From positions 1,178,001 to 1,242,000 of the forward strand of contig NC_087382.1 in the NCBI RefSeq assembly GCF_963675165.1: a stretch of DNA of 64,000 bases, given 5' to 3'. The notes under the pieces were generated by a model. It saw only the letters and a program-made list of their open reading frames with translations, did not search any database and was not told the origin of the DNA. Position 1 is the first letter of the stretch, and every line of letters starts with the position of its first letter. This DNA is from Halichondria panicea (lineage: Eukaryota > Porifera > Demospongiae > Suberitida > Halichondriidae). Position numbers and translations under genes: made by a program. This document shows positions 17,117 to 44,972 of the stretch, piece by piece.

Positions 17117-17427
17117 ATGTTTCACACAAGCTGTGTGGATGTTACGAATTGCTGTTCCGTCCTTGAGCTGCTTTGCAATGCCCACCAATCGACAATAAGT
17201 GGCTGTCACATGAAAAGGATTTTCAAAAACGCTTAAGCATTTCCATTTATTTAGAGCAGCATAACATTTCCCTGAAACACTTGAAAATGTCGGATTCTGA
17301 TCGATACCCTCAATCTCAGCATCACTGAGGCCCAGCCTGTACTTGTAATCGTTGTATCCAGCAATCTCGGTAGACAACTGGAGAAGAGCTTCATCCGAGC
17401 ACTCCTGGCTCAACTGAGCTGCAGTCG
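17117..17427 (-). CDS. Gene D: C-terminal Death-domain exon
   Basis: Acceptor ctctatag, donor cat|gtaagg, phase 1 in and phase 0 out. About 100 residues, beginning TAAQLSQECSDEALLQLSTE and containing YNDYKYRLGLSDAEIEGIDQ and IAKQLKDG. This six-helix pattern, with the LGL-x-x-x-EIE-x-I turn typical of Death domains, is different in sequence from the N-terminal Death exons of this array. It is uninterrupted. The following exon is not identified; the basic-tail segment at 17032 is nearby but its phase does not fit. Confidence 0.65.
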
Positions 17428-17532
17428 CTATAGAGTAAAAAAGTACTGAATAATTATCGGACGCAATTGTATATAGTTTATATAGTATAATTATACGCTC
17501 TCAACGATATTACTGGGCACACTGTCTCATAC

Positions 17533-17589
17533 CTGACTCAATGGTTGCCTGGGGAACTCCATCAGTAGATAGTTGAGTTGCTGCACTAC
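17533..17589 (-). CDS. Gene D: 19-residue linker exon
   Basis: Between acceptor cacacatgcag and donor g|gtatga, 57 bp and phase 1 on both sides. It reads SAATQLSTDGVPQATIES, a Ser/Thr/Ala-rich linker between the Ig-like and C-terminal Death parts. The next exon completes its last codon in frame. Confidence 0.55.
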
Positions 17590-17944
17590 CTGCATGTGTG
17601 GATGATAGATCACTAAAGTGAAACAGGCGATATAGTGTAAACACTTATAATCGGTTTGACATGTACTTTCATGTATCGTGCAGTCGTAAGAGTTCTATTG
17701 TGATTTTGCATATAGAGATAAGACATGCATGCTAAGTAAACACTGAAACAAAGAGGCTTCGTAAGCATACATGTGGGAGACAAAGAGTTATAGTAAGAAC
17801 CAGCCTTCAATCTGGTATAAAGGATCGACTTTAGTTTTACCCCATACAGAAAGTACTTATATAACTATACATGTGGCTGCCTTGATACAGCCTCATGCCT
17901 CATGCACAACAGCTATATACATGCAATAAAAGATAAGCTGTTTA

Positions 17945-18205
17945 CCATTCTCCTTTTTGTAGAGAGCTCTGTAGACAGTGAGGAGCACTTTCCCAGCAGC
18001 TGCATCCTTCACCTCACACTGGTAGTGACCAAAATCCTCCTCTCTCACACTCGGGAAGCTCATTGTTGGGCCGATCATCAGTTGTTTTGATATGACGTCT
18101 GGAGCACTCTTTGGTCCAGTGGAAAGAGAACCCATCCTCAGCAAAGTTTAGTACCTCTATAGTTCCGTGCTGCTTCCTAGACACACGTTCTGTATGGGTA
18201 AGCGG
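17945..18205 (-). pseudogene. Gene D: Ig-like domain exon with one frameshift
   Basis: The first half reads RVSRKQHGTIEVLNFAEDGF then FSFHWTK (B/C strands with the invariant Trp). The second half, in another frame, reads SKQLMIGPTMSFPSVREEDF then GHYQCEVKD (the D-x-G-x-Y-x-C motif of an Ig fold) and ends ENG|gtaaac. The shift lies near 18105-18125. An Ig domain inside a cytoplasmic death-fold protein recalls MALT1-type architecture; that comparison is mine, not a homology result. Confidence 0.55.
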
Positions 18206-18382
18206 AACTAACAAACGTGAGCACATATCATTTATGTTATTGTACAGAAATTTGTCTAGTTTATTTATCTTACAGAAATGTTATATACACACTGAAACTA
18301 ATTAGCTATCATACAGCTAAAGACAAACATAATAAAAAAAGTTTGAAATACACATGTACAATAACAGAATCAGTTTACTCAC

Positions 18383-20534
18383 CTTCATCAACCACACTTG
18401 TTGTCCTTCACTGAGGGTGACGGGACTTCTACCACACAAGAAGTGGATCTGTCGGCCTTGAACAAGGGTGCAAAGGTTGTTGAGACTCTTGCTTGTTGCA
18501 TGTTTAGAACAGGAGCATTGGAATGCAACACTGAGGTTCAACTTTGGGAACAGAATCTTAACCATATACAGGATTGCTGACAAAGTGTGGGAGCAAAGAT
18601 CGTGAAGAGAGAAATCAAGTTGTTCTGCATTGCGTTCAACTCGTATCTCGTAGCTTCTGTCGTGAGAGAGCAGTGTCACCTTGTGTACATAGTCAACATA
18701 AAAGGAAACGTGGTTTCGTTTGACACCTTGATCCACCAATTCCCACGTTAATCCGAGAATTCCATGGGGTCCTTGGGAAACTAGTCGAGTGATGAGCCCA
18801 CAGAAGACTCCTGTTGGTACGTAACCAAAGCTGAATGTGATGTGGAGAGGTTCTGGGTTGTTGGCATCTGGTGGAGGTGGGTTGGTCAGCTCGTCTTGTG
18901 GTGCACACTCCAAAATAGCCGGCATGAGGTAGGTGAATCGAGTGACGTTTGGATTGTTGGTATCTTTGTGAACAATTTCAGAGAGAAGGTTGAGATATTG
19001 CAGCAGTACAATGAGCTGCTTGGCTGGGATAATTTCTCCTTCCTTGAGCATCTTTGTAACATCGGGACGTACTTGATGATGGCTTCCAGTGAAAACTGCC
19101 CCATTTTGATCAACTCTTCTCGCTCAAACTCAGTGACGTGGCCTTCGGAATGGAGGATGCGTAAAGCGGCAATGATCAGTTGGCTGATGCTAGTGAAAAT
19201 TACTTCAGGGGTGCAGAACATGTGATTCTTGAGCCAGTCATCCGGCACATTTGTGTAATGCATGAGCGAGCCAATACTGTGAAGATACCTCAAGCAGAAT
19301 TTGGTATCTTCTTCATCCATCTCCAACATTCTCCCAATTTCCAGACAGTCTTCCATCGACATGCACGATTGAGTAATCCATCCGCAGTAGTGTGCCCAGT
19401 AGGAGCCATTTTGGTTTGATGGGCAGAGATGCATCCTTGAAGTGAGAGGCAAAAACCTTGCTCATGAAATCGCGAATTGGGGCGATGTCAGACTGTTCGG
19501 TTCCAGCAAAGTTGTCCACGGCAAAAAATGAAGATTCAGAATCTGACGGAGGTAATACCAGGATCTTGGCAAACTTTTGAGTGGTCGCTTTCAGAGCAAG
19601 ACCTGCTTGATTTTTTCTTTTGGATTTTCCAACTTGTCCACGTGAGTACCGATCAAAGCTGCTATAGGACGAATCTGTTGGAACTTTTCAAACTTTTCAC
19701 CTAATTTGGAGGTTTTGACCAAATCATCCTCTCGAGGGACGTGATGGACACAGGCAATTGAAGAAAGGATTTGAGAGACTGTGGCTTCCACTGTGTGCGC
19801 AGCTTTGTATGGGGTGATAATGGTGTTGTCTCGACTGAAGGGAATATCGTAGGGCTCGTCCAACTCTTTGCTCAAATCCAAAAACACTAGATACAAAGCT
19901 GGACCATTGCTCACGGCTGGTAGCATTTCCAAGAAGCCTGGCTGGCCTCCGACATCCTTGATGTGTAACAAGGTGCTGCCAAGACGACTGGCCATTTGGG
20001 AGTAGTTTCCGGTTTTTATCAGCTTTTGCAGGCGTTCCCTGATTTGGACCAGCTTATTCTGTTTATCGGTGTTTTCTTGCTTTTCAGTGCGTGTTTCTTC
20101 TTCCTGAGGCTTTGGTTGCTGCCTTTCAGTAGAAAGTTGAACTTTTTTTAGAGTTTCGGATGACTTTTTGGTTGGCTTTTCAATCCTTGTCGTTTTTTCT
20201 TTGCTCGGTACATTTTCGATCTTGTTGCCGTACATATAGCTAAAGAGAACTTGTACTTCCTCGTTCACGTCTTCAGAACAAACCCATTCAGTAGCATCCT
20301 TGTTCATATAGGCAACCACTTGATGGCAATTGGCGAGCAGTGTACTGCCGAGCTTTGCTTTTTCTTCATTGGAAGTGATGTTTACGATATTTTTCCGCAA
20401 ACGGTTAAGGGTTGTTGTTTTCCCCACGGATGGTGGTCCAACAAGAAGGAGCCCGAGATTTTGCATAGAGACAGCTTCTTCGTCAGTCATCAGATCGTCC
20501 AATTTCTTCAGATATCGCTTTTGCTCGCCAATCA
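18383..20534 (-). pseudogene. Gene D: ROC GTPase-COR exon, frameshifted
   Basis: After acceptor catgcatgcag the frame reads VIGEQKRYLKKLDDL and then the P-loop LLLVGPPSVGKTTTLNRL. A long Lys/Glu-rich insert follows, then switch II IKDVGGQPGFLEML and the base-recognition motif LIGTHVDK. The COR part follows with SMEDCLEIGRMLEMDEEDTK, FCLRYLHSIGSLMHY, NHMFCTPEVIFTSISQLI. It ends MK|gtgagt. Frame changes occur near 19600-19625 (beside an A6 run), 19355-19375 and 19060-19070 (beside CCC). Roco proteins hydrolyse GTP and dimerise through COR. Two of three shifts lie at short homopolymers, so assembly error is a real alternative. Confidence 0.7.
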
Positions 20535-20599
20535 CTGCATGCATGCATAATTATATTTAAGTACTATGGTTCATATGTAACGATACGTGCAGCCATTTA

Positions 20600-21790
20600 C
20601 TATGTAAGCATACATGGATTCTTGTACCATGATGTGCTCTGACACTAAGGAATACCCATTGAAACTCTCAGGATACTCCAGGGTACAAATCCCATGTACC
20701 CTAGGGTACATTGGCTGTGGTCATCCTAAAGCCCACCCTCCACCCTTAAAGGAGCCACTCTTTTATATCACTACTGTGACACACTAGGATCACATTGTGA
20801 AGATCAATTCTTCAGTATCCAATCAGATTCACTAAAACTACCGGACCACATTGGAACTGGGTTGTGTGAAGTTGTAAATGTGGTTTGTCAAGTGCAAGCA
20901 CACGCACACAAAATGTGCACAGTGCATGCACGGCAGGGATCAAAGAGTGTTCAGTTGTAAATGGGTTGGATAACAGCTTCTAATTGCTTCTAATCATCAT
21001 AGTACAAGCTACCTGTACCATGGATATCAAGGGTGTATTTTTACTGCCCTTGGTAGTACAAATCCAATTAACCCTTGATATCCATGGTACAACTATTACT
21101 TTTAACCTTTTCCTCGCTTTAGCCGCCTATATAATTATGGGTTAATGATAAACTTTTTTTAAATCGCTGTGCATGTTGTAGGTACCTACGGTGGTCCTGA
21201 AGGTCACGCTATGTGCTATATGCGTAATGTACTATGCGAAGGTCTCTTTCATTGTGTCCTGCGCGCATTAGAAGTTTACGGCTGCCCATCAGTCAAGGTT
21301 CTTTTTCAAAAGGCAGTTGGCTATTATAATTATTGTTATAGTTTTAGTAAGACCCTGCATAGGGAGCTCCTTTATCTTCCAATCCTATATAGCTAATGCC
21401 TCTCGCCATGTTTTGCTTTCGCTTTATAATGTTACGTTATTATTGTTGTTTGCCGGCAATAGGTCAGAGTTCACAAGGACTGTGTGTACACATGCATATC
21501 ATGCAGCTTTGCAGCTCTAACAAGCAGCTTACGCTTTAGTGCATGGCTATAACTCATAAACTGAATAGAAAGTTTGTGCGAACAGGTGATGCTACGAAAT
21601 ATTCTGGTATGGGAATTATATACCTATGGTATATATACAATGGGCTTGTAGTCAGATAGCTTGTATTAATACTGTATAGTATTAACTACCGTGAACTAAA
21701 GCTTTGGTGCATGCAACCGTAGTACAAAGTATGGTATTTTGTTGTCAGTAGCAAGCAAATCTTCGCTGATATAATGCAAGCCGCCAAAAT
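20600..21790. other. Gene D intron with hairpin and repeat debris
   Basis: A perfect 20-bp stem (gtaccatggatatcaagggt and its inverse) bounds 21015-21090. At 21520-21620 a fragment matches the repeat at 37850-37975 (aagaatgaatagaaagtttg-type words). No extra coding exon with compatible phase was recognised. Confidence 0.5.
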
Positions 21791-21804
21791 CTATACCCAT
21801 GCAC

Positions 21805-21966
21805 CTTTGTCGAGGTTTATTCTTAGTTTTTCAGCTAGTTCCTCGTGTCCAAGCTCACGAAGGTGGTGTACAACTGTCTCGTAAGTCTTTTCACCAGTCA
21901 AAGAAAATCCTTTGATGTTGTTGTCTAGGAGCAGCTTTTCTAATGCATCAGAGTCTTCCTCAGTCA
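21805..21966 (-). CDS. Gene D: 54-residue helical domain exon
   Basis: 162 bp, phase 1 in and out, between gtgtttgcag and g|gtgcat. It reads TEEDSDALEKLLLDNNIKGF, then SLTGEKTYETVVHHLRELGH and EELAEKLRINLDK. This looks like a partial death-like or four-helix module. The preceding linker and the ROC exon join it without frame change. I do not recognise the family. Confidence 0.55.
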
Positions 21967-22220
21967 CTGCAAACACAGCAACATAATTATACACAGCTGT
22001 CAAGATCAAAACTCAACTGGCAAGCTTACTAATACGTTTAATTTAAATATAATAACCACAAAGTCAATAATACAACATACGAATACATTTAGAGAGCTAA
22101 AGAAGATACCATGCAAGGAAAGATCTGCATGCGATGAGGGGTGTGATCAATATGCAATCTTACTTGGGCTGATCATAAAAACACTTTCCAGAAGCGCATG
22201 TACAATCTTAATTGACTCAC

Positions 22221-22280
22221 AATTGACTGGTGGAGTGTCTTTTGACTCCCTCTTTGTTGCCTCCACTGTCAGTAAATCAT
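22221..22280 (-). CDS. Gene D: basic linker exon
   Basis: 60 bp between ttctcttag and t|gtgagt, phase 1-1, reading DLLTVEATKRESKDTPPVN. The same exon, with ATKRESKDTQPV-type sequence, occurs in gene C (28318-28244), gene B (34816-34683, internally duplicated) and gene A (44254-44178), always following a kinase or Death exon. It is a hallmark of the array. Confidence 0.65.
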
Positions 22281-22331
22281 CTAAGAGAAAATACAGTCAT
22301 AATTATTGTGTATACTGTCTAATTAACTCAC

Positions 22332-23094
22332 AGACTACCCTGGCAGATGGTATCCTCGGCAAGTCTTCTTGCAAACAATGGTCGATAAGCTTCTTCAACT
22401 TATGTGTGTGAGGGATCTGGGCAAAATGGAATGATCGATCCTCCATTGATTTGATTGTCTCCAGCTTGCAAACAATCTGCACCATAATCGCCCCAAGGGA
22501 AAACACATCCAGGCTACTATTGTACATCCCCAATTGAATAGCCTTGAGAGGTAGATACCCCATATGGTTACCAATGGCTGTAAGTTTGGAAGGATTGTAC
22601 AGCCGTGAAATGCCTAAGTCGGAAATCTTTGCAATAGGCATTGGTCGTGTAAGCTTCAGCAAGACGTTATCACCACAGAGGTTACGGTGAATCATCAGCT
22701 CGCTGTGAATGTAGGCCAGACCACAAGCGACGTCTTTGGAGAGGCTAATTTCACATTCGCTAGTGAGGGACTCTATTAAGGCTGAGGATATAGGATCTCA
22801 AATTGCAATCCATCAGCTCAACAACGAGGATTGTATCACCTGATTTAGGGTGCTTAGCAGTTGACAAAAACTGAACAAGGTTTGGGTGTTGGAGTAACTT
22901 GAGAAATTCGCTTTGATCATCCATCGCTTTAGTTTTTTCGGCTGGAATACCAGACTGTATTTCCATAGCATCGTGAGTCAGCACTTTGACTGCACAAATC
23001 TCGCCTCTGTAGCTGCCTTTGAAGACTGGTCCAAAGGCACCTTCACCGAGTTGTTCGTTTAGGAAAATCGTCAAATCGTCATTGATCTGGTCAA
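22332..23094 (-). pseudogene. Gene D: protein kinase exon, HRD changed to HRN, 2-bp deletion
   Basis: Starts VDQINDDLTIFLNEQLGEGA with glycine loop GEGAFGPVFKG, the ATP lysine in ICAVKVL, and LLQHPNLVQFL. The C-lobe, in another frame, has MIHRNLCGDNVLLKL and ISDLGISRLY. The catalytic Asp of HRD is Asn and DFG is DLG. Compared with gene C, two bases are missing near 22770. The exon is 763 bp, whereas the phase-1/phase-1 borders need a multiple of three (765). The fold is of the TKL/RIPK-like type. It is either a pseudogene or, if the indel is an error, a probable pseudokinase. Confidence 0.7.
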
Positions 23095-23173
23095 CTGTAC
23101 AATAATGGGGTTGGGGTGGGTTACGGCTAATAAAACAAGATGTTCATATAGCATTCACCCCGCGTGCGTTACG

Positions 23174-23323
23174 TTTTAGTGGCGTAGGAAGCTGGAGCCC
23201 CCCCATCTTTCCAGGCTATTAAATAAGCTGCACTCTGTAGGTATAGGTGTACTTTTTCCATTCAAAAAACTATAGAGCCCTCACGGGCCCCCATTGAGAA
23301 ATTGCTTCTTAAGCCACTAAAAA
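23174..23323. mobile_element. Short MITE (TTTTAGTGGC / GCCACTAAAA)
   Basis: Ends ttttagtggcgtaggaagct and attgcttcttaagccactaa form a short imperfect terminal inverted repeat around a 150-bp body, in the intron between the Death and kinase exons of gene D. Confidence 0.55.
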
Positions 23324-23527
23324 AATCTTTGCTTATTTTTGTGTCTACACACACACTCACACAAACCGACAAACACACAATTACTCTACCCAATAATTAT
23401 GTTGCAGCTAATAATTATCTGATATTGGATTGCTTACCAGTAAACCAGGTTTACTGCAATAATTAAATGCTGATGTAGTAGACAGTGAGTATGTATAACA
23501 TGTGCCTATAATAATTGGATTGCTTAC

Positions 23528-23810
23528 CAGTAGACTCTTTCTTGATGGTCTTGGCAATGTAACTGAGGCCGACAACAGGATTGGACAAAGCTTTGACAAC
23601 ATCTTCCCAGCTTCTCTCCCCACCTTTCAGCCATTCTTTCAAACCCTCACGAAAGCAGTCATTAGGATCATCTCGCCATTTCGTACCTATGCTGTCGATA
23701 GTATCCGAGGATACGTCAAGAACCAGCAAAATGGTTCGCCACTTGTTTCGAGCTTCAAACGTAGCTATGTAAACTTTCTTTAGATCTGCTAATGTGAGAT
23801 AGTCAGACAT
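23528..23810 (-). CDS. Gene D: N-terminal Death-domain exon
   Basis: Reads MSDYLTLADLKKVYIATFEA, RNKWRTILLVLDVSSDTIDS, IGTKWRDDPNDCFREGLKEW, LKGGERSWEDVVKALSNPVV, ending ES with donor g|gtaagc in phase 1. This is a clear Death domain (the W-x-x-DP-x-x-C and LKEWL motifs). The conserved ATG suggests a start. An acceptor just upstream (ttctacacag|aaacg) is also in phase 1 and in frame, so the exon may be internal and joined to the CARD exon. Intact. Confidence 0.75.
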
Positions 23811-24409
23811 CGTTTCTGTGTAGAATATAGAGGCAAGCATGCGTAAAGTAACTGTTTTTTGCTAGCTGATGTACTCAAAGGAATAAAAAGAGGCCTGCTT
23901 AGTCTCAGCTATACTGACTAATTGCTCTTATACCACACTTACGTCACCACAAATTGATCTCATTGGTCAACAGCTGTAGGATATATAGAATATTAGCATA
24001 CAGCCCCAGGCATGCACAGTTTTTCAAGTTGTTTTTTAGTTTTTTCATTTGTTCAAGAAAGTAAGCAAAGAGAAAAGAGCCATGCTTGACGGTACTAAGA
24101 CTCAAAGCGACGGCAGAAACACGGAAGGTGCTCTCCAACAAGATGGCTAAGCTTCCATGGGTCCATGGGCGCGGTTTAGATACATTTTATCCAAGAAGAG
24201 CTTGCAACTCCAGTAAGGGACGTAGAATGGTCAACGCTTGGACCAAGGAAGCTCTTGAGCATCTGTAGGAGTCAACATGTTGCTCAACTAGCTCTTTGAC
24301 GGCTACAAAATCCGGCATAGTCTTGTTCTTTTTTGCAATCTGCATCGTGATTGAATTGTTGCTAGGGGGAGGTCCTTTTATAGTGCTGCGGTCACGTGGT
24401 ATAAGTCAG

Positions 24410-24545
24410 ATATGCCACACCTACTCGGAGGATATGCACCCTATATATCCTCCGCTACCGTGGTTACATACCCCTTGGCTCCGCCTCGGAGTAACCACGG
24501 TAGCAGAGGATATATAGGTGCATATCCTCCTCTTAGGTGTGGTAT
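24410..24545. mobile_element. Hairpin-forming foldback element
   Basis: ccacacctactcggaggata and the stretch to gctaccgtggttac are mirrored by gtaaccacggtagcagagga to ctcttaggtgtgg, a stem of about 55 bp with a small loop containing ccccttggctccgcctcgga. Confidence 0.75.
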
Positions 24546-25558: not shown

Positions 25559-25967
25559 CTGTCACTGGGAGTGGAGCCTCTGGTGGAAGTTGCTGGTGTC
25601 GGGGTGGAGAGAGTTGTGGCTGTTCAACACGGCTGGTCGCAGTCTTGTGACGCTTGTAACTATCGTGTAGTTTCTTGACAACATCGTCAGTAGAAGGGCC
25701 AGCGATGGTCTCGATAAAGCCATGGAATACACTGGGATTGTTCTCAATTCGATGGGTGATGGTTTCTAAAATCTTTCGAGATTTATCAGAGTCCATAACT
25801 CCATTCAGTCTAGAATACTTGAGAACTTTATCTGGTATGTAGCCATTGGAGAAGAGGCTATCAGCGTATGCAGCAGGTTGAGCTTTGAATGTGGACACCA
25901 ATGCTTCAAAGTTCTCTTGGAAGGACAGATACTCTGGAGAACAGTCGGGGGTTGCTTGAGTGGCCAT
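25559..25967 (-). CDS. Gene D: CARD-like first exon
   Basis: Reads MATQATPDCSPEYLSFQENF, then SLFSNGYIPDKVLKYSRLNG, SDKSRKILETITHRIENNPS, VFHGFIETIAGPSTDDVVKK, and a Pro-rich tail before donor g|gtctgt in phase 1. The helix pattern with D-K-S-R-K-I-L and F-x-x-F-I matches death-fold CARDs. It is 90% alike gene B's first exon but keeps the 17 bp that B has lost. The conserved-domain exon that follows in gene B is missing here. Start chosen at the ATG conserved in both copies. Confidence 0.65.
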
Positions 25968-27058: not shown

Positions 27059-27979
27059 TCATGATACAAATAACGAGAGGAAGTCTACAGCGTTAATAAA
27101 TCTATTTTCATCGGTTCCTCCGGCTACAATGACCTCTCCACTAGGAAGTACTGAGCATGTGCAGCGATCTCGTGCAGTAGGCAGGTCTCCCACTTTCACC
27201 CACCTCCTGGTGTCAGGCTGGTAAAGGTGGATCGATGAGCTTGTGATGAGTCCGTCATCTGCTCCACCAACGGCTAATAGTGACCTCCCAATACTGAGAG
27301 GAGCTGAGAAAACGAGTGGTGTGTCTTCAATCGTCTGCCAGAGAGTGGTGGGTGTGTCCAGGTTGGAAACGGCCTTTGCAATGAGTTCATTGAGGTCGAC
27401 GTGGTTGACTGTCTTGGTTGGCCACTCAGTATTGTACCCTCCCATTAGGTAGAGGGTGTTTCCTATGAGAGTTGATTTCAGTCCTGTTCGTGGGTTAGGT
27501 AGTGACTGAGCAATGTACCATTTTCTTGATGCCACGTCCAACACTTCCACAGAAGAGGTAGGTCCTTCATCATCACGCCCACCGGCTACAATGATGTGGT
27601 TGTTAAAGGAGACAGCTGTTGAGGAAGAACGAGCAATGTTCATTGGTGGGTACGGGTGAGTCCATTCCCATGACTCAAACATTGCAAGTTGATTGGTTGA
27701 TTTGGTGTTTCTTGGATTGCATCCTCCCACCAGCACTAGTCGATTAGCGAGTGATGTCATAGCGAAGAACTGGGCGATGTACTCTGGTACTTCGGTCCAT
27801 TGATCTTGCTCGAGCTTCATCACTGTCCTGTCATGATCCCCAACTGTAAACCCTCCAGCAACATACACCGTATCACGGATAACAAGACTCTGTACCAAGG
27901 TGCCCATCTTAATTGGCATGTCTTTTCCATTTCTCCATTTCAGAGTGAGTGGAGGTCTCAACTCTCTGAGAGGGGGACC
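27059..27979 (-). CDS. Gene C: six-bladed kelch-domain exon, intact
   Basis: 921 bp, phase 0 after acceptor cattattcag, ending in a stop: 306 residues. Kelch repeats are visible as successive VYVAGG, LVLVGG, IIVAGG, LYLMGG, LLAVGG and VIVAGG glycine pairs spaced by about 50 residues with downstream W/Y (QWTEVP, RKWYIA, RRWVKV). That gives one six-bladed propeller, a protein-interaction surface. It is about 80% alike the kelch exons of genes A and B. The reading frame is clean. Confidence 0.8.
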   Translation of the reverse strand, partial: GPPLRELRPPLTLKWRNGKDMPIKMGTLVQSLVIRDTVYVAGGFTVGDHDRTVMKLEQDQWTEVPEYIAQFFAMTSLANRLVLVGGCNPRNTKSTNQLAMFESWEWTHPYPPMNIARSSSTAVSFNNHIIVAGGRDDEGPTSSVEVLDVASRKWYIAQSLPNPRTGLKSTLIGNTLYLMGGYNTEWPTKTVNHVDLNELIAKAVSNLDTPTTLWQTIEDTPLVFSAPLSIGRSLLAVGGADDGLITSSSIHLYQPDTRRWVKVGDLPTARDRCTCSVLPSGEVIVAGGTDENRFINAVDFLSLFVS

Positions 27980-28243: not shown

Positions 28244-28318
28244 CTTTAACTGGTTGAGTGTCCTTTGATTCCCTCTTTGTTGCCTCCGCTGAGTCCGAGT
28301 CTTTTGTCAGTGTAGCAT
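28244..28318 (-). CDS. Gene C: basic linker exon
   Basis: Follows ttttaatttag; reads ATLTKDSDSAEATKRESKDT then QPVK. It is the same module as in genes A, B and D. The donor is aaag|gtgcgt, one G longer than in gene A, which puts it out of phase with the kelch exon. Confidence 0.6.
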
Positions 28319-28403: not shown

Positions 28404-29199
28404 AGATGTCCCTGGCAGATGGTCTCTTCATCATGTCTTTTTGCAAGCAACTGTCGAAAGCTTCCTCAACCTGTGTGTGTGAGGGATCTGGGCAACACGG
28501 AATGATCGATCCTCCACTGACTTTATCGTCTCCAGCTTGCAAGCAATCTGCACCAAAATCGCCCCAAAGGAAAACACATCCACGCTGTTATCATATTTTT
28601 CCTTGTCCAATCGAATGGCCTCGAGAGGTAGATACCCTCTACAATTACCAATGGCTGTGAGGGTAGAGCTAAGCTTGGAGGGATCGTATAGCCGTGACAT
28701 GCCATAGTCGGAAATCTTTGCGACAGGTAATGGTTGTGTAAGCTTCAGTAAGACATTATCGCCACAGAGGTCACGGTGGATAATCTGCTTGCTGTGAATG
28801 TAGGCCAGACCACAAGACACATCTTTGGAGAGGCTAATTTCTACATTCACTAGTGAGGGGCTCTTCATTAAGGCTGGAGAAATAGGATCTTAAATTGCAA
28901 CCCATCAGCTCAACAACGAGGATTGTACTACCTGATTTAAGGTGCGTAGCGGTTGACAATATTTGGGTGCTGAAGCGACTTGAGAAAATCACTCTCACGC
29001 TCAATTACATTGTTGGCTTTTTCATTTTTGTCAGCTGGGATACCTGCCTGCATCTCTAAAGCAACGTGAAGCAGCACTTTGACTGCACAAATCTCGCCCT
29101 TATAGCTGCCTTTTAGGACTACTCCAAATGCACCACTACCGAGTCGTTGGTCTAGGAAAAGGGTCAACTCATCATTGATCTTCTGGTGATTTTGGTCGA
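28404..29199 (-). pseudogene. Gene C: protein kinase exon with catalytic HRD but three indels
   Basis: Glycine loop GSGAFGVVLKG, lysine in ICAVKVL, IIHRDLCGDNVLLKL and DYG in ISDYGMSRLY are all present, so its catalytic loop is better preserved than gene D's. Relative to gene D, 11 bp are lost after LQHPNIV (near 28955), one base is gained near 28825 and one lost near 28458. Adding these back makes 807 bp, an exact multiple of three as required by the phase-1 borders, which confirms the lesions. The shift after the N-lobe gives an early stop, so as read no kinase is made. Confidence 0.75.
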
Positions 29200-32042: not shown

Positions 32043-32371
32043 TCTCTGACTTTACATCAGTAGGATTGCTAGATTGTAGAATCTATGATCTCTCTCGATG
32101 GTCCTGGCTATGTGAACGTGGCCCACAGTATATAGGACTGGAAAATACTTCCACCATAGATTGCCAGCTTCCCTCCCCACCTTTCAGCTATTCCAACAGA
32201 CCCTCACGATAACAGTCATCAGGATTGTCACGGCATTTTGTACTTATGCTGTCGATAGTAGCCCATGACATTTCCAGGGCTAGAAAAATGTTTCGCCACT
32301 TGGTTCGAGCATCAAATTAACGTAGCTCTGTACAGTTTTCCTAGATGAGCATCTGTGAGATAGTCAGACAT
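32043..32371 (-). pseudogene. Gene C: dead Death-domain exon
   Basis: Begins MSDYLTDAHLGKLYRATLI then a stop caused by an inserted base, where intact copies have ATFDAR. Later segments keep the family sequence (WRN-type start, DDCYREGL) but GLLE is followed by TAG. The 3' end (accatcgagagagatcata and the donor a|gtaagt) matches the Death exon of gene A. Confidence 0.75.
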
Positions 32372-32877
32372 CCTCTCTGCATGCATGCATGAGAAGCAAT
32401 AATATTTTGTATGTATTGGTATTATACTTGCAAGCTATAATTACTGTAGACTGATATATAAATCTGCACAAACATCATTGCTGTGTGCACTCACTCACTA
32501 GCTGGTATAGAAGCCAGAGGCAGTATATATATATATATCTTTGTTCTGATGGATTTCTGATGCAAATGTATATACTGTAACTATATAAATATGTATATGA
32601 GATTCACCCACTTTTTCTCTGGAGAACAGAACCAGTCTAGTTATTCATGATTAAGATTCACATTCCCAACACCCTTGGGGGGGCCCCTCACACACATGAC
32701 TTGTGAAGGCCATTCATAGATACACAATAGAGAGCAGAAAATCAACAAATCAACAAATTTAAATCAGAGTGAGTTATGATTAACGAGAGTTCACGTACTG
32801 TATTAATCGTAACTTCTGATTTGTTAATTGCTAATTTCGTGTGTGCATGTACATAAAAAAGTTCCTATCTATGTTAG

Positions 32878-33785
32878 CTACTTACTGAAGAGGAAGTCCA
32901 CAATGTCAATATTTTGATTAGCCATTCCTCCGGCTACAATGACTTCTCCACTAGGAAGTACTGAGCATGTGCAGCAGTATCATGCAGTAGGCAGGTCTCC
33001 CACTTTCACCCACCTCCTGGTGTCAGGCTGGTAGAGGCAGATCGATGAACTTGGGTTGTGTCCGTCGTCCCGTCCACCAACGGCTAATAGTGACCTCCCG
33101 ATACTGAGAGAGCTGGGAACACGAGTGGTGTGTTTTGTATCGTCTGCCAGAGAGTGGGTGTGTCCAGGTTGGAAAAGGCCTTTGCAATGAGTTTATTGAG
33201 GTCAACGTGGTGCACTGCCTTGGTTGGCTTCCCAGTATCGTACCCTCCCATTAGGTAGAGGATGTTTCCTATGAGAGTTGACTTCAGTACTGATCGTGGG
33301 TTAGGTAGTGACTGAGCAATGTACCATCTTCTTGACGCCACATCCAAAACCTCCACAGAAAAGGTACGTCCTTTATCATCCCACCCACCTGCTACAATGA
33401 TGTGGTCGTTGAAGGAGACAGCTGTTGAGGAATCACGAGCAATGTTCATTGGTGGGTACGGGTAAGTCCATTCCACTGACTCAAACACTGCAAGCTGATT
33501 TGTTCGTTCGTAGCTTCTTACATCATGTCCTCCCACCAGCACTAGTCGATTGGCGAGTGATGTCATAGCGAAGTGCATGGCAGTGTACTCTGGTAGTTTA
33601 GTCCATTGATCTTGCTCGAGCTTCATCACTATACACGTGTCATGGTCATTGTCTGCACCACTTCCACTAACATACGCCGTGTCACCGATAACAACACTCT
33701 GTACCGAGGTGCCCATCTTGAATGGCATGTCTTTTCCTCTTCTCCATTTCAGAGTGAGTGGACTCAACTCTCTGGGAGGGGGACC
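32878..33785 (-). pseudogene. Gene B: kelch exon with a 1-bp deletion and a nonsense codon
   Basis: Acceptor attattcag, then GPPPRELSPLTLKWRRGKDM and five recognisable kelch blades up to LVFPAL. There agctctctcag has one C fewer than agctcctctcag in genes A and C. Downstream, in the restored frame, PTA is followed by TGA where the others have CGA, a CpG-type transition. The exon is 908 bp; 909 would fit. The last blade and the stop are otherwise preserved. Confidence 0.8.
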
Positions 33786-34682: not shown

Positions 34683-34816
34683 TTTCTTGGCTAGTTGAGT
34701 GTCCTTCGACTCTGTCTTTGTTGCCTTATCTGTACGCACTTTCTTGGCTGGTTGAGTCTCCTTTGACTTTCTTGTTCTTGCATCCATTGGGTCCCAGTGT
34801 GTTTTCAGTAAAGCAT
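34683..34816 (-). CDS. Gene B: internally duplicated linker exon
   Basis: After cattcttag it reads ALLKTHWDPMDARTRKSKET then QPAKKVRTDKATKTESKDTQ and LAKK, two copies of the ESKDTQPAKK module in one exon. It enters in phase 1 and leaves in phase 0 (aaa|gtacgt), fitting the kelch exon. The internal aaagtgcgt resembles the donor used in gene A, so the exon likely grew by tandem duplication that swallowed a donor. Confidence 0.65.
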
Positions 34817-35074: not shown

Positions 35075-35146
35075 CCTCTGTCTTCACATCAGTAGGGTTT
35101 ATTGCCTGTAGAGGATCTGCTATTGTGAGACGGTCAGACATATTCT
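35075..35146 (-). CDS. Gene B: truncated Death-exon derivative
   Basis: 72 bp between tctatacag and g|gtaagc, reading NMSDRLTIADPLQAINPTDV then KTEG. It keeps the first ten and last ten residues of the Death-domain exon (compare MSDCLTLAYL and NRTDVISEG in gene A), with the whole helical core removed. Downstream intronic sequence (gtgatgggggctttgtccaa) still carries a Death-domain tail, so the deletion was accompanied by local rearrangement. Confidence 0.65.
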
Positions 35147-36707: not shown

Positions 36708-36839
36708 ATGTACTTTATACCCTCAAGCTTATAATTCCCTGGGAAACTATGAGATTATGGCTCATAATTCCCTGCTAAACACACACAAGTGGGATCTAAC
36801 TATTATATAGACTATAGCTAAGTGCTATTTTTCCCTCAC

Positions 36840-36916: not shown

Positions 36917-37779
36917 CTGCACAAGATTTACAAATCATAAGTATAGACGACAATTTGTCCGAGATCAAAGGAAAAACTGTGCCAATATCTGCCATATGGC
37001 ACCGTTCAGATGGTGAACTGTGCCAGTATCCAGATATTGGTATAACGGTGGTACAGTATGGCTGAAGTTACCCAAAGCCTACCCATGCACATACCCAATA
37101 ACTTGAAACGGTTCCTATCACAAGGTTGGAGTTATTTGTGGAACGGTAGGCATAAGTATATTCATGACATCCGGTAATTAAGCGAGACCAGAAAATTATA
37201 ATTTATGCAACAAAATTAATTAGTTGTTACACAGCACTCATGCGCATGTGGGATATAATTATTGGCTCAGTAGTGCCGTTTGCCCTCGAGACCGCAGTGG
37301 CACTCGTGCGTGTTAACTATTATAACGAGTGTTGCAAGGGCTAATGCCTCTCGCCATGTTTTTGCTTTCGCTCAAAAGTATTAGAGTGTTTAATATAGAA
37401 GAGGCAAATAATTTGCAATGTGCTTTGATTGTTTCACAAGAAAGGGGTGTCCACAGTTAATAGTGCATACTGATCATCTTAAATGGCCTGTATAGCCAAA
37501 CAGTGGGAGCAAACCGTTGTCAAAGGCATAGTAAGTAGTCTGTGAGATAAGTATTAAAGACAGAATTCAATCACAGAAAGTAGTATCTATAACAAGCAGT
37601 CTAAAAAGAGTTTAATCACAGAATTCAATCACAGAAAGTATAGTACTTACATACCATGTACCAGGACCTCAACAAAGAAGAAAATTGCATGATTCTGCCA
37701 TGCGCCAGGATCTGAGGTTTAAAATGGATTCTTACACGTGGAATTCTTACTCTTGAGCGCGCATACGCATTACATCCAG

Positions 37780-38216
37780 GAATAAGGGGTGTGTCTGCAA
37801 GTTCACAACAATTAATAATGGCTACTAAAATGGCTAGCTATAGCTTCTTTAGCAGCTCTTTCTGCATGACTCTTGTAGCTAACAAACAGCTAGTGCTTTA
37901 GTGCAAGGCTAACTCATAAGATGAATAGAAAGTTTGTGCGAACAGATGATGCTATGAAACCTTCTGAAGAGACTGCAACAGCCTTCAATGTGAGTCAAAC
38001 TAGCCATAACTCGAGAAAGAAGCTTTAGTTTGCTAATCCACGAATCAAAATCCAAGAGAACGTGGCTAGAAGCCTATAGAAGCTGTTAGTTTTCGTCGCA
38101 TTTCAACCGTTGAGCAGTTACAGCTGGAACAGACACACAGACAGACCCACAGACAGGCACATACACACACACAGTCAGCTTTACCGTATCCCTCGTGCGG
38201 CTACGCCTCGAGGCAT
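37780..38216 (+). repeat. REP-A-related repeat
   Basis: Shares aactcgagaaagaagcttta, ctaatccacgaatcaaaatc and the acacagacagac run with REP-A. It ends cctcgtgcggctacgcctcg then aggcata instead of caccgaggcata, so it is a sister subfamily. Confidence 0.6.
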
Positions 38217-38237
38217 AATTATGCCAACCTAACTTAC

Positions 38238-38403
38238 TGTTCCTGCAGCAATTTCTCCACCTCATTTGTACTCCCACTGGGATTGCTTGGTGGAAACCAA
38301 AGCTTTGCCTTCTTGGTAGGTGGTGCTGATAATGTGGTGGTGTCACCTGTAGACTGTAGAGGATTTCCTAAATCTGCTATGGTGAGAGTGTCAGAAATCT
38401 TCT
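38238..38403 (-). CDS. Gene B: short MSD-type exon with a Pro/Lys-rich tail
   Basis: 166 bp, phase 1 in and 2 out. Starts EKISDTLTIADLGNPLQSTG, a Death-exon start without the domain, and continues TTTLSAPPTKKAKLWFPPSN and EVEKLLQEQ. PPTKKAK could be a nuclear-localisation-like basic patch. The last residues repeat the end of the preceding long exon (EVDTFLREQ), so this exon is a partial duplicate fused to a Death-exon start. Confidence 0.6.
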
Positions 38404-38518
38404 CTGTATAGAATAAAGAGCAGCGATATACAAAAAAACTTGTGCATAATTATAATTATAGTAGATGTATGTGCACAATAGACAAAGTGCTGGTTTGCCC
38501 TCACTGCCAAACATTCAC

Positions 38519-38598
38519 CTTTAGTGTCCTTTATTTGAGTGACGGTGGTCGCACTTGTGTCCTTAGACCTCTCCTCTAGTTTGAGTTTGCTCAGATCC
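38519..38598 (-). CDS. Gene B: linker exon (first copy)
   Basis: 80 bp, phase 2 in (completing the Gln codon split by the previous intron) and phase 1 out. Reads DLSKLKLEERSKDTSATTVT then QIKDTK. Charged, probably unstructured. Confidence 0.6.
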
Positions 38599-39272
38599 CT
38601 AAACAAGATTTACTATACTTACTTTGGCTACATAACAATCATAACAAGGTGTTCAGTGGAGCATCACCCCACCCCGTATGTTGAACTTCGGCAGAACGGA
38701 TACAATAACGTTTACCTTAATATTATGGGGAATGATGATGAATCGGAAATGATTGTGAATCTATGAACGGAAAACAATGTTTTTTGTCGCCTTTGAAAAT
38801 TGCCAACAAGTTTCAACTATGCAGCCTTATAAATTTTCAACCATGCACGGTCTCATTAGCAGTTATAAGTTAAGCAGTCATGAAAGTTTCTAACAGCTCA
38901 ATCTGTGTCCACACACACACACACACAAACACCAATCACTGTAATTATGCGCACACACGGGGTAATAATTATACACATACTTCATTGAATTCATGCACCT
39001 CATTCATTTATGTAGTGCATAGGAGACAGGAGTAATGGACATCATAATTATAATAGCTAAATACAATCTAAAATATACGTACTACCAGTTTCTATTATAA
39101 ACGGGAAGTAATTTTAACGTTTTCAGATTTTTCTCCGTTTTATTAGGGTACTAATTTTGGCGGATTTGTATAGCAAATTCATTAGCACAATAATTGTCAA
39201 AAGATGCATGTTTTGTGGAAAAGTTTGTAGTCAGAAATTACACAGATGAAAAAAGGGCTAGCTTGCTTAGCA

Positions 39273-39503
39273 TACCGTATAGCGCGAAATTTTCGAGGCA
39301 CTTATATTTTGTGGATTGGCCTCTAAAAGCATTAAGCATTTTCGTTGCACAATGTTCACGGAATGACTGCTTACCGGAAGCCACGCCTTTAAATCTTTGC
39401 ACGTTTTAGCAGGTAATTCAATTTTCGTGGACTTAATTTTCGTGATTGCTACCCACGAAATCCGCGAAAATTAAGCCCCTCGAAAATTTCGTGCTATACG
39501 GTA
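39273..39503. mobile_element. MITE (TACCGTATAGCGCGAAATTT ends)
   Basis: taccgtatagcgcgaaattt is inverted as aaatttcgtgctatacggta. Internal pairs such as ttttcgtggac and cgcgaaaattaa are as in 11694-11883. It lies in the intron after the long gene B exon. Confidence 0.8.
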
Positions 39504-39656
39504 CTCAAAAGTAAATGTTCAATAGAAAAAAGAAGTATTTTTTCAAAATGCGTTTTATTGTTAGCGCGGACTTTATTTAGCGTTAATCACTAAAATTCGC
39601 TAAAATTAGTACCTAATAGTAACATTAAGGTATATAGGGCCCTTTCAAGAACTTAC

Positions 39657-40778
39657 TGTTCTCGCAGAAATGTATCCACCTCATCCGTACTTTCACAGGT
39701 GAGAACCCCTATCGCACTGAGAGCTGCCTCTACAGTAGGGGACACTGGATAGATACGCTTGGCAACAGCTACAGTGATGAGAAAGTGGAGCTCCAAGCAG
39801 CCTTGTTTGACTGAATGAAGTTGTAGCGCTGCTTTTTGTAGACCAAGTGCTTCAGCGATTCTTCGTGTCAGCCTTTTTACACACTCGAGTGTGGCTACTC
39901 GCTCAGTGCATTTGAGAACAAATACTTTGGCCGTTTTGATACGAGATTTTGAAGAGAAAGCTTCGGCCGGAACTTCAAACACATTTCGCTGGCAGAACTG
40001 ATCAAGTGCAGAACAATACTCACGCAGTTGTGTTTGGTCGTCTGGTGATCCCAGCAGCTCGATGAGGTACTGCACTATCTCATAATTGAAGAAGGAGATG
40101 TAGTCACGTAGAGTCATGAAGACTTCGGGCAAATTTTTGGCATTTTTGATTTCTTGCTTATCTTGTGGATCTGGTACTTTGACTCCAATCCCGTCGTTGA
40201 AAGCATCGAGGCTGAGAACGGAATCTTTAATCCTTTCCAAAGGGATCCGTTGGTTTTCAAATGACTCTTGTATAATTAGAGTAAAAGCAGTGAAACTAAT
40301 TATCATTTTCCTTGTATCACGTATGAGCCGATCCTCCAATTCAATTCTATCATCCTCATCAAGGCTAGAAGTGTCGAGGTGTGGGAAGCTGAAGGATGTC
40401 GGAGCCTCTGGTGGAGGTTGCTGGTGTGGGGGTGGAGAGAGTTGTAGCTGTTCAACACGGCTGGTCGCAGTCTTGTGACGCTCGTAACTATTGTGTAGTT
40501 TCTTGACAACATCGTCAGTAGAAGGGCCAGCGATGGCCTCGATAAAGCCATGGAATACACTGGGATTTACCTCAATCCGATGGATGACGGCATCTAAAAT
40601 CTTTCGAGATTTATCAGAGTCTAGAGAATTCAAGAACTTCATCTGGTATGTAGCCATTGGAGAAAAGGCTATCAGCGTATGCAGCAGGTTGAGCTTTGAA
40701 TGTGGACACCAATGCTTCAAAGTTATCTTGAAAGGACAGATACTCCGGAGAATGGTCGGGGGTTGCTTGAGTGGCCAT
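39657..40778 (-). pseudogene. Gene B: CARD-like plus conserved sponge-type domain exon, 17-bp deletion
   Basis: Begins MATQATPDHSPEYLSFQDNF. After FSRL the frame is lost because 17 bp present in the gene D copy are missing. In the other frame it continues SDKSRKILDAVIHRIEVNPS and a Pro-rich tail, then about 230 residues including LRDYISFFNYEIVQYLIELL, KVFVLKCTERVATLECVKRL and LQLHSVKQGCLELHFLITVA. From memory, this last domain accompanies death-fold and NACHT-type proteins in sponges and cnidarians. Function unknown. A shorter protein starting downstream of the deletion remains possible, since that frame is open for over 340 codons. Confidence 0.7.
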
Positions 40779-40879
40779 TGACAGATAACCTGTGAGTGAA
40801 CATGGGTATTTCATTGGCACATTCATAGCATGTATATAGAATCCTGTGTTTCTATATTAAAAAGGTTTATTGTTGAAAG

Positions 40880-41090
40880 CTTTAACTGAGGCTCTTGAAT
40901 TGAGATTTATTCAGTGCAACTTTGAGATGGCCATTCACTCACCTTGGTGGCCCTAGCTCTAAGTAGATAGAGGAAGTGAAGGACCCACAAAACCACTGAT
41001 AATTTGCCCTCAATATACAATGTACATTTATTATCTTCCCTACATCTACACACACTGTAGGTTTGTGAGCATGCCCAATAATTTACATTA
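40880..41090 (-). promoter_or_regulatory. Conserved upstream block of gene B
   Basis: Shares caccttggtggc, gaagtgaaggacccacaaaa and gtgagcatgccc with the gene D upstream block at 26095-26290, in the same order and spacing relative to the CARD ATG. A minus-strand donor (caag|gtgagtg) suggests a non-coding first exon. Confidence 0.5.
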
Positions 41091-41109
41091 AACCTTAAAA
41101 CCGTATACA

Positions 41110-41235
41110 TGCCGTTGTAACGGATTGGAGTTATGCTCTCGATCGATTGTCTGCTTTCTTGTTTCTATGCTTTTTGGTGCTTCCCCCCCAGCCAATCCTA
41201 CACATTGCAAATGTTTTTGTGAGGTGAGTCTTGTT
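41110..41235 (-). pseudogene. Diverged copy of the basic-tail exon-like segment
   Basis: Matches the arms at 16478/17032: taacggattggagttatgct, ctgctttcttg and cacattgcaaatgttttt. On the minus strand it reads QKHLQCVGLAGGEAPKSIET with indels relative to those copies, so its frame is not conserved. Confidence 0.6.
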
Positions 41236-42411
41236 TCCATGCTTTTTTTGGTAAGATTGTCGAATACCGTATAGCAGGTATATTTCGAGGGTATAAATGT
41301 TCGCGGTTTTCGCGGATTGAGCCTGTACCGCGAAAATTTATGAATAGTAGGCGTGTTCAGTATTATTGACCACACCTATCGACAGTAAGAGGAAAGAAAA
41401 AAGGAATCAAGAGACAAGAACGCCGGTATAGCCCAGTGGCCTGCACAGCAAACGTTTTGCTAGAGGTGGAGGACATAGTGCCTCACCGATCCTATTATTT
41501 TTTATACAGGCTAGGCCTGGATTCGAGGCTAACGATGTGGAGGTACAGCTGCATGTTGACGTGCGCATGCGGCAAAAGGCTGGAACTCATTTCTTTAATG
41601 CAAAAATGTTCATCACGATAAGTATAAAGTTTGTAAAGTGTGTACTATATTGTAGCTTTATGCAGCTTTGATACCTCCACCGAGGCATCAACATCCGTGG
41701 TGCTTTCATTCTATTACCAAACATATCTCTATAATTATAGCACATGTACGTGACGCATAATATATACTCACAGACTACACAAATCAAACGAAACCCTCCA
41801 GTGTAAGTCTTAGCCATTACACAAGTACAAATAAAATACTATGTGAGCCTACAAATTAAAGGCATGTATACTGACAACAAGAGCAAAAGCAGCACTGCAC
41901 CTCCAATATATAATAATCTATGGCCTGGCCGCCATGCACATGAACCTCGACTACTATAAAAAAGCTCTGGTATGCTATATATCAACAACAACACATGCAT
42001 GAAAATCAGTAATCCGATTCGGCGTGGATTAAAGGCTAGCAGCATGGATACATTCAGGACCAGTGGGCTTAGGCTCATGTAAAGTGTATCTAGAAAGTGA
42101 GAGAAAGCAGTGATGTCATTGTAATGATGTCATGACTTTTGGGGGGGGGGCGTGAAAGCTCTCCATCTCGGGGCTAAGAAAAATTACAATGTACAAAAGA
42201 AGGAAGTGGTTAAGTGATGATAATTATGTTTTAATACTGTAGCAGTCAAAAGTTGGGGATGGGGAAATATCATTTTGTTGATTCCTTTAACTTTTCCATG
42301 AGTTATAGCTATAACAAACAATTTGTTTCTATCTAAATAATCACAGTGTCAATGATTGTTCATGCAGTCTGTCCAACCATAGATACTAGTTCTCTAGTAT
42401 CTATGGTCCAA

Positions 42412-44972
42412 CTAAGCACTTAGAGAAAAAAAATCAATAGTTTGGATATTAGTATATGAATTTATCTGTCCTCCAGCTACAATGATCTCTCCACTAGGAA
42501 GTACTGAGCATGTGCAGCAGTATCGTGGAGTAGGCAGATCTCCCACTTTCACCCACCTCCTGGTGTCAGGCTGGTAGAGGTGGATTGATGAACTTGAGTT
42601 GTGTTTGTCGTCCCATCCACCAACGGCTAATAGTGACCTCCCAATACTGAGAGGAGCTGAATACTCGAGTGGTGTGTCTTCTATTGTCTGCCAGAGAGTG
42701 GGTGTGTCCACGTTGGAAAGGGCCTTTGCAATGAGTTCATTGAGGTCGACGTGGTGCACTGTCTTGGTTGGCTTCCCAATGTTACCCATTAGGTATAGGG
42801 TGTTTCCTATAAGAGTTGACTTCAGTCCTAATCGTGAGTTAGGTAACGACTGAGCAATTATGTACCATCTTCCTGATGCCACGTCCAACACCTCCACAGA
42901 ATAGGTAAGCCAGTTTTTATTATCACGCCCACCAGCTACAATGATGTGGTTGTTGAAGGAGACAGCTGTTGAAGATCGACGAGCAATGTTCATTGGTGGG
43001 TACGGGTGAGTCCATTCCTCTGATTCGAACACTGCAAGTTGATTGGTTACTTCACTGTTTCTTGTATTATGTCCTCCCACCAGCACTAGTCGATTAGCGA
43101 GTGATATCATAGCGAACCACCTGGCAGTGTACTCTGGTAGGTCAGTCCATTGATCTTGCTCGAGCTTCATCACTGTACACACGTCACGATCATTGTATGC
43201 ACCACCTCCACCAACATACGCCGTGTCACCGATAACAACAATCTGTACCGAGCCGCCTGTTTTGATTGGCATGTATTTTCCTCTTCTCCATTTCAGAGTG
43301 AGTGGAGGTCTGGGAGGGGGACCCTGAATGAAAAACAACCAATGATACAATCATAATCATTAGAGGCTTGTACATGACTTAACAACTGACAACTAGAGCA
43401 CTATATAAAGTACTGAATTCTCTCAGTGTTAATATAATCGGGGTTCTATAAGTGGTGGATCTAGCAGTGGCGAATCCAGACAGGTTCCGTGGGTTCCATG
43501 GAACCCCACTTTAACACAAGAACACACTGGAGATCAACTTACTATAGCTAGCAACTCAGCTTAAATGATGTGATCTGTAGTTACTAGGCTGATTTCATGC
43601 AATTGATATGTGGGCAGGGCTCTCTAACATTTTTTTATGTAAAATTTACTGTTTTGGAACCTCCCTCTCAACATTCCTGGATCCGCCACTGTCTAGGATC
43701 AATGTTTAAAAGACTGTGAGCGCGTGAACAGTCACAGCCTGTAAAAAAATGTGAGACCATGCCCATGCAATTCAACGTGTAATTTTACCTATAGCTATAT
43801 TAATGTAAACATGATAACACCCCATGTGGTCAAATAAGTAGCATCAAAGTATAAAAATAATGGCCACATAACTCTACCTAATAATATATATAGAGTGCCA
43901 AAAACCACAAGTATATACTTCCATCATGTCAGGCCAGCTGCATATATGACTTCCAAAACCTGCCTATTATTCTCAAAAGGTACCTCACCTAAAACGGGTG
44001 CTATCAAACTTATAATGAGTGCATGCTATAATATTATTGGCTCAGTAGTGACATAGCCCCGAGGGCAAACGGCACTACTGAGCCAATATATCCGATGTTC
44101 CATGAGTGAAGCTATGTAACAACTGATTTGTTACTGTGCATGTAGCTACACATCACACACTACATGTATATACGCACTTTATTGACTGGTTGAGTGTCCT
44201 TTGGCTCTCTCTTTGTTGCCACCACTGAGTCCGAGCCTTTTGTCAATGAAGCATCTAAATAAAATGTTCAACAGGAAATATTCCATTGTACAACAAATTC
44301 CAAAATTAACTTTTAATATGTGATAGCTAGCTATCCTGCCGCATGAATGTTTAGTTTTTGCTGTAGGACGCATGCATGCATGTACTGAAAATCAATTGCA
44401 ACTCTTTTCCTTAACATACAGTGCATGAGCATATTTTGAGGGTATAAAATTAATGTTAGCAGTTTTTGCTTGTACCGTGAACATGAATTATCGCATGGAT
44501 GCATGCTGCAATAAGGCTGCTATTCCGCGAAAATTAATCCGGAAAAACTTTACTAACAATCTTTCCACGAAAGTTTATACCCTTGAAATAATTAAACCCA
44601 CCGTCCGTATATATGCCTTTCAATCTATAGTGCTTAATTGGTATGATTATACTTACCCTCTGAAATCACATCAGTACGATTGCTAGACTGTACATGATCT
44701 CTCTCGATGGTCTTGGCTAGGTCACTGTAACCCACAGTGGGACTGGACAATGCTTTGACAACATCTTTCCAGCTTCTCTCCCCACCTTTCAGCCACTCTT
44801 TAAGACCCTCACGATAGCAATCATCAGGATCACCTCGCCATTTCGTACCAATGCTGTCGATAGTACCCGGGAATACTTCGAGCATCAACAAGATGTTTCG
44901 CCATTTGGCTCGAGCATCAAACGTAGCGAGGTACACTTTGTTTAAATAGGCTAGTGTGAGACAGTCAGACAT
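42412..44972 (-). CDS. Gene A: intact Death domain-kelch protein (about 434 aa)
   Basis: Three exons: 44972-44657, 44254-44178, 43323-42412. Junction phases are 1 and 0, and the three coding lengths sum to 435 codons including the stop. Residues 1-105 form a Death domain (MSDCLTLAYLNKVYLATFDA, TIDSIGTKWRGDPDDCYREG, LKEWLKGGERSWKDVVKALS). About 26 residues of basic linker follow (ATKREPKDTQPVN), then a six-bladed kelch propeller with VYVGGG, LVLVGG, IIVAGG, LLAVGG and IIVAGG blades. Family knowledge: Death domains oligomerise signalling proteins; kelch propellers bind partners. A cytoplasmic adaptor is inferred. The start is at the ATG conserved in all Death exons; an acceptor-like tctatacag just upstream leaves a further 5' exon possible. 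Confidence 0.75.
43465..43691. mobile_element. 227-bp hAT-like MITE, 5-bp TSD
   Basis: cagtggcgaatccaga and tggatccgccactg ends. The flanks are tctag at 43460-43464 and 43692-43696. It sits in the intron of gene A before the kelch exon. Confidence 0.75.
44030..44095. repeat. Short hairpin (attggctcagtagtg)
   Basis: ttggctcagtagtgacatag and gcaaacggcactactgagcc form a stem across cccgag. A related half is at 37262-37300. It is in the gene A intron. Confidence 0.6.

Follow-up and report, generated by a model that had tools for sequence, protein, structure and literature searches.

A candidate receptor-like kelch gene family with exchangeable front ends in the sponge Halichondria panicea, and a decayed satellite array of its genes

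The window analyzed here is a stretch of 64,000 nucleotides from the demosponge Halichondria panicea (contig NC_087382.1, positions 1,178,001 to 1,242,000; G000:C6:1178001-1242000, part of the 131-Mb assembly). Between 17.1 and 45.0 kb its minus strand carries an array of genes in which Death-like, CARD-like, kinase, linker and kelch exons recur. An earlier note made from the letters alone had described these recurring exons, and self-BLAST and Pfam searches confirmed them. The array is a decayed satellite of a large gene family with well over 100 members rather than its source, because most of its combinations recur intact in many copies elsewhere. Judged from the gene sequences, the whole is probably a diversifying, receptor-like family, with different front ends joined to a common kelch propeller and the array as its decaying satellite. 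Such a family, in which putative signalling heads are exchangeable and the kelch ligand face evolves fast, appears undescribed. Our literature search, with subscription journals largely outside its reach, found no account of Death/kinase-kelch families from sponges.

The genome was searched with each module and the modules were then joined by position; all locus counts are lower bounds. The most numerous class was Death-kinase-kelch (DPK, at least 66 loci), followed by kinase II-coiled coil-kelch (TK, at least 41), CARD-mid-kelch (CMK, at least 12) and Death-kelch (DK, at least 4). The family is concentrated on contig C1 at 15.48-17.39 Mb, with further loci on C6 below 0.81 Mb. The order of classes along C1 was random, with 60 label changes compared to 61.6 expected after shuffling. 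In this region the genes of the left half lie on the minus strand and those of the right half on the plus strand, with identical copies across the halves, a pattern that may stem from a segmental duplication in inverted orientation or from the assembly itself. The third front end, that of TK, pairs a tyrosine-kinase-like kinase of another kind with a long KDxxL coiled coil, upstream of the common coiled-coil and kelch exons (for example L120, C1:15934940-15939400, and L121, C1:16836000-16840420). Its kinase exon was 95-100% identical over most of nearly 50 copies. Kelch loci without a front end were dropped as a separate kind, these loci being TK genes.

In intact relatives the Death exon exits in phase 1, the kinase exon is 1-1, and the CARD-mid exon exits in phase 2 into an adaptor exon of phases 2-1. 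A 75-nt coiled-coil exon (0-0) precedes kelch, which is entered in phase 0. Phase 1 marks the junctions where front ends can be swapped, and the 3' half is in phase 0. The linker has 77 nt and runs from phase 1 to phase 0, which makes it an adaptor rather than a symmetric cassette. The phase-1 borders that the earlier note had seen at nearly all domain exons thus held at the front-end junctions but not at the linker exit, the coiled-coil exon or the kelch entry. Similarly, its 60-nt linker is present in the gene at 22 kb, but the linker has 77 nt in Gene A and in the intact genes elsewhere. Its inventory of recurring modules stands, except that it missed the adaptor exon at 38519-38598 and the relatives' 75-nt coiled-coil exon, which is missing from the window genes. 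As read, the kinase exons measured 763 and 796 nt; adding 2 and 11 nt gives the proposed 765 and 807 nt. The 162 nt of the helical exon were also confirmed. Tandem duplication of the linker exon was observed in several genes (L013, L017, L019; window 34684-34816).

Modular reassortment is real at the family level. In 18 matched genes the Death, kinase and kelch alignments each rejected the trees of the other two (approximately unbiased test, p <= 3e-4), so that the module-by-module trees proposed in the note were discordant and the concordance expected of whole-gene duplication was not found. A single kelch clade for each front end was rejected for DPK (p 1e-4) and TK (p 0.033). Front end and kelch therefore reassort, as no module fits the tree of another and kelch sequence is not sorted by front end. 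Between CMK and DPK genes homology begins at the linker exon and continues through the following introns at up to 93% identity, sometimes exceeding the identity between two CMK genes. In TK genes the homology with other classes starts upstream of the coiled-coil exon. When a Death-kelch gene was compared with a Death-kinase gene on C6 as a test of precise kinase-exon loss, the introns could be aligned only in patches. In an exon-block control the distance correlation was 0.29 between non-adjacent blocks within an exon, 0.16 between exons and 0.31 across the Death-kinase intron. The decorrelation within exons indicates ectopic recombination with many breakpoints, exons included. Exon shuffling, as claimed for the array, is thus right in that modules reassort in the family but is not sufficient alone, and ectopic gene conversion or crossing-over explains the discordance at least as well.

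A possible, though not favored, alternative is that gene conversion alone is at work on old and stable front-end classes, with tracts homogenizing kelch among neighbors and no architectures arising now. It would account for the decorrelation inside exons and for the synonymous divergence (dS) of the same 15 genes, which was lowest in kelch (0.058, compared to 0.21 for Death and 0.17 for kinase). However, it fits poorly with between-class homology that starts at a single place, the linker, and then runs through introns, and with the random interleaving of classes, as repeated unequal crossing-over would produce. In the diversifying receptor-like family that we favor, at least three cytoplasmic-type front ends are joined to kelch by a phase-fixed linker or coiled-coil segment, namely a Death-like domain with a tyrosine-kinase-like kinase, a CARD-like domain with a helical mid part, and a second kinase with a long coiled coil. 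Crossing-over and gene conversion among clustered copies, including the introns that flank the linker, would keep re-pairing these heads with kelch variants and homogenizing the scaffold.

Selection on kelch was different from that on the front ends. In the same 15 genes the ratio of nonsynonymous to synonymous divergence (dN/dS) was 1.33 for kelch, compared to 0.38 for Death and 0.35 for kinase; the CARD-mid exon gave 0.36. According to kelch geometry, BC loops follow the GG of each blade and DA loops precede strand A. All 21 hypervariable kelch sites (entropy >1.5 bits) fell in these loops, and none was found among 193 other sites (Fisher p 3e-12). The loops had a dN/dS of 1.5-1.9 and the scaffold 0.42, and among 19 independent nearest pairs the values were 1.73 (p 4.5e-7) and 0.48, respectively. 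The substrate face of the KEAP1 and KLHL20 propellers is made up of the BC and DA loops (PMC4668279, PMC6720452). In the kelch exons of L066-L105, the BC loops had roughly double the dS of the scaffold (0.16 compared to 0.07), which would follow if selected variants were kept while the scaffold was homogenized. A homogenized scaffold with diversified ligand loops appears as the pattern of a recognition domain. The ligand face appears to be under diversifying selection and the scaffold and front ends under purifying selection. The putatively expressed proteins would bind variable partners such as microbial products or other non-self cues through kelch, the death fold or kinase would relay the signal, and copies may associate through the coiled coil.

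It is also conceivable, but rather unlikely, that kelch diversifies for non-microbial ends, either self/non-self recognition between sponges or the choice of substrates for ubiquitination or phosphorylation. Substrate choice is the usual task of kelch domains (PMC4668279). Moreover, kinases are attached, and RING-TRAF-type genes adjoin the array, though this proximity is not a functional link. Death-fold heads, in contrast, are typical of innate signalling.

The kelch exons were identified as kelch propellers by Pfam (PF24681, E 1e-37; PF01344, E 1e-31), and the window kinases matched at E 1e-16 to 1e-19. The best PDB matches of the kinases by sequence were EGFR, TAO and B-Raf chains, and the motifs K, HRD and DFG were kept in the intact copies read. 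Among 20 Death-like exons 14 matched PF00531 at E <=1, the best at 0.0011 and the window copies at 0.037 or not at all; FADD chains in PDB matched at E 0.003. Two canonical Death domains were observed, one on C28 (L001, C28:38134-41361; PF00531 E 8e-16) which is fused with the Death-like exon into a single exon, and one (L116, C6:731080-732420; PF00531 E 1e-12) standing by itself upstream of a kinase. In Gene 4, Roc (E 1e-4) is followed by COR-A (E 4e-6), both below the curated cut-offs and in a frameshifted exon, and the Ig-like exon reached E 0.03. Of the domain labels given earlier, kelch and kinase can be kept, Death and Ig are weak, and CARD is unsupported.

Compared with known systems, the family resembles the NLR repertoires that have expanded in sponges and other invertebrates, e.g. 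Dysidea avara (PMC12909245), in its putative death-fold or CARD-like head, its large species-specific expansion and its presumed intracellular recognition. In contrast to them, its exons, as far as scanned, matched neither NACHT nor LRR, its variable part is the kelch propeller and kinase heads are common. With IRAK/Pelle the family shares an N-terminal Death-like domain ahead of a tyrosine-kinase-like kinase, but the sponge genes have a C-terminal kelch after the kinase, a kinase nearest to EGFR, TAO and B-Raf, and a very high copy number. BTB-kelch proteins (KLHL/KEAP1) share the propeller, and the variable sites of the sponge genes lie in the BC and DA loops, with which KEAP1 and KLHL20 bind substrate. 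However, no BTB match was found among the exons scanned, and in place of BTB and BACK the sponge genes carry Death-like, kinase, CARD-mid or kinase II heads. Brown algal LRR-ROCO genes, in which exon shuffling was described (PMC11378527), are likewise a candidate immune family built from modular exons, with the recognition part under diversifying selection, whereas here the variable part is a one-exon kelch instead of LRR exons and the ROC-COR gene is a decayed side branch.

Several points weigh against the receptor-like reading. The gene models come from genomic sequence, with exon joins taken from splice dinucleotides and homology. The Death identity of the Death-like exon is weak but consistent, and the CARD-like exon had no match to CARD in Pfam or PDB. 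AlphaFold2 models were too poor for use, with a predicted local distance difference test (pLDDT) score of 42 for Death and 39 for CARD-mid, the latter model being wholly helical. A single kelch clade was not rejected for CMK (p 0.10), and recombination complicates all trees. The loop borders, though drawn by kelch geometry, were set after a first look at column variability, and dN/dS was obtained by pairwise counting (NG86) and not from a site model. Some of the near-identical copies (C6/C28, C1 halves) may be haplotypes that the assembly did not collapse.

Within the array (Table 1), self-BLAST gave DNA identities of 84-87% among kelch copies at 27.1, 32.9 and 42.4 kb and 80% between kinase copies at 22.3 and 28.4 kb. 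The CARD-like copies at 25.6 and 40.4 kb were 88% identical, and Death-like copies lie at 23.5, 32.0 and 44.7 kb. The extent of 17.1-45.0 kb given in the note holds for the recurring genes, but a decayed Death exon was found further out at 14741-15020. Indels within a few bases of alignment ends were left out of the defect counts, which comprise indels only for kinase and kelch exons; stops were counted for Death and CARD exons only. Only Gene A (44972-42412, minus strand) is intact, its Death, linker and kelch exons giving 434 amino acids in frame without defect. Genes 2, 3 and 4, also on the minus strand, all hold frameshifts. Gene 2 (40778-32878) consists of CARD-mid, adaptor, hybrid exon, Death remnant, linker and kelch, with one frameshift in CARD-mid and one in kelch. 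Gene 3 (32376-27059) is a Death-kinase-linker-kelch gene with three frameshifts each in Death and kinase. Gene 4 (25967-17117) has CARD, Death, kinase, linker, helical, ROC-COR, Ig-like and Death-like exons and is frameshifted in kinase and ROC-COR. Its relative on C4, in which Death-Death-kinase, ROC-COR and Ig exons are present, is broken too; over part of its length the ROC-COR exon of Gene 4 has 89% amino acid identity to that relative. In the kelch tree the three kelch exons of the window and one at C6:2.6 Mb were set apart from the big clusters (99/97). Candidate CARD-Death fusions at C6:2.6 Mb and C1:10.98 Mb were ruled out, since a kelch exon lies between the two parts and they are neighbors instead.

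The earlier claim that this locus generates new signalling architectures, by local gain and loss of symmetric phase-1 exons, was not borne out and we regard it as improbable. The phases of the kinase (1-1), Death exit, adaptor exit and linker entry agree with it, as do the single-copy hybrid exon at 38.2-38.4 kb and the rejection of one clade for the four Death exons of the window (p 0.001). However, one Death clade was no longer rejected (p 0.07) once the 14.7 kb remnant was omitted, and linker, coiled coil and kelch lack phase-1 symmetry. In addition, all combinations except the CARD head of Gene 4 occur elsewhere, Death-kinase-ROC-COR-Ig in the C4 copy, and most window copies are decaying pseudogenes. 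The hybrid Death/CARD-mid exon may be a recombination product; as a general module it was ruled out by its single copy in the genome. An assembly artefact, with frameshifts as sequencing errors and near-identical copies as haplotype duplicates, is very improbable, since despite some identical copies between C6 and C28 and between the C1 halves, frame-breaking indels were nearly absent in C1/C6 control copies of the same exons compared to several per window gene, most copies diverge by several percent or more, and random errors would not confine hypervariable sites to one loop set.

Table 1. Exons of the array and its surroundings in window coordinates
Feature	Position	Strand	Remarks
Gene A exon 1, Death-like (MSD...)	44657..44972	-	ATG start, phase 1 exit, intact
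Gene A linker exon	44178..44254	-	77 nt, phase 1 entry, phase 0 exit, KREPKDTQP
Gene A kelch exon	42412..43323	-	phase 0 entry through stop, intact
Gene 2 CARD-like + helical mid exon	39657..40778	-	frame broken by 17-nt deletion
Gene 2 adaptor exon	38519..38598	-	phase 2 entry, phase 1 exit; not in earlier note
Hybrid exon	38238..38403	-	Death-exon-like start, CARD-mid-like end; single copy genome-wide
Death exon remnant	35075..35146	-	72 nt, deleted internally
Linker exon next to Death remnant	34740..34816	-	second, partial copy 34684-34726
Gene 2 kelch exon	32878..33785	-	single 1-nt frameshift
Gene 3 Death exon	32043..32376	-	3 frameshifts, 1 stop
Gene 3 kinase exon	28404..29199	-	3 frame-breaking indels
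Gene 3 linker exon	28244..28318	-	75 nt; out of frame with kelch at junction
Gene 3 kelch exon	27059..27979	-	open frame
Gene 4 CARD-like exon	25559..25967	-	without mid part; same 3' end at C3:1367425
Gene 4 Death exon	23528..23815	-	Death-like copy at 23.5 kb
Gene 4 kinase exon	22332..23094	-	1 frame-breaking deletion; HRD to HRN
Gene 4 linker exon	22221..22280	-	60 nt, phase 1-1
Gene 4 short helical exon	21805..21966	-	162 nt; without family match
Gene 4 ROC-COR exon	18383..20534	-	spread over overlapping open reading frames in different frames
Gene 4 Ig-like exon	17946..18207	-	C4 relative 88% DNA identity, downstream of ROC-COR there
Small exon	17533..17589	-	57 nt; splice dinucleotides the sole basis
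C-terminal Death-like exon	17117..17427	-	Pfam E 0.13
Decayed Death exon beyond noted array	14741..15020	-	4 frameshifts, 3 stops

Other features were observed in the window and the genome. The plus strand at 46549-57341 carries a cluster of RING and TRAF-type zinc finger genes with a weak MATH match (open reading frames 49762-51060, 51867-53219 and 56038-56610 and a fragment at 46.5 kb), the tandem copies being 66-91% identical. A sulfotransferase-type open reading frame lies at 62004-63617 (PF00685, E 2e-12). A short inverted repeat with 100% identical arms (16478-16595 / 16910-17027) and a diverged third copy at 41108-41218 is probably a small mobile element. Tandem repeat arrays were found at 2153-2611 and 13783-14257, with units of 22 bp and about 98 bp. 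On C2, silicatein-type sequences (GDCGASYAF) carry a serine at the position of the catalytic cysteine, which we read as marking a siliceous sponge.

It has long been asked how animals that lack adaptive immunity recognize many partners. The variable families known for this are built on LRR, Ig, SRCR, lectin or fibrinogen domains. If the receptor-like reading is true, a diversifying kelch propeller on interchangeable death-fold or kinase heads would add another molecular solution, in one of the earliest lineages of animals, and the loop analysis pinpoints the exact residues for testing. We tentatively suggest that sponges may possess a kelch-based variable receptor repertoire, in which recombination within gene clusters would pair any of at least three heads with any of a large pool of hypervariable kelch faces. 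In that case, individuals would carry different repertoires to distinguish symbionts, pathogens and other sponges.

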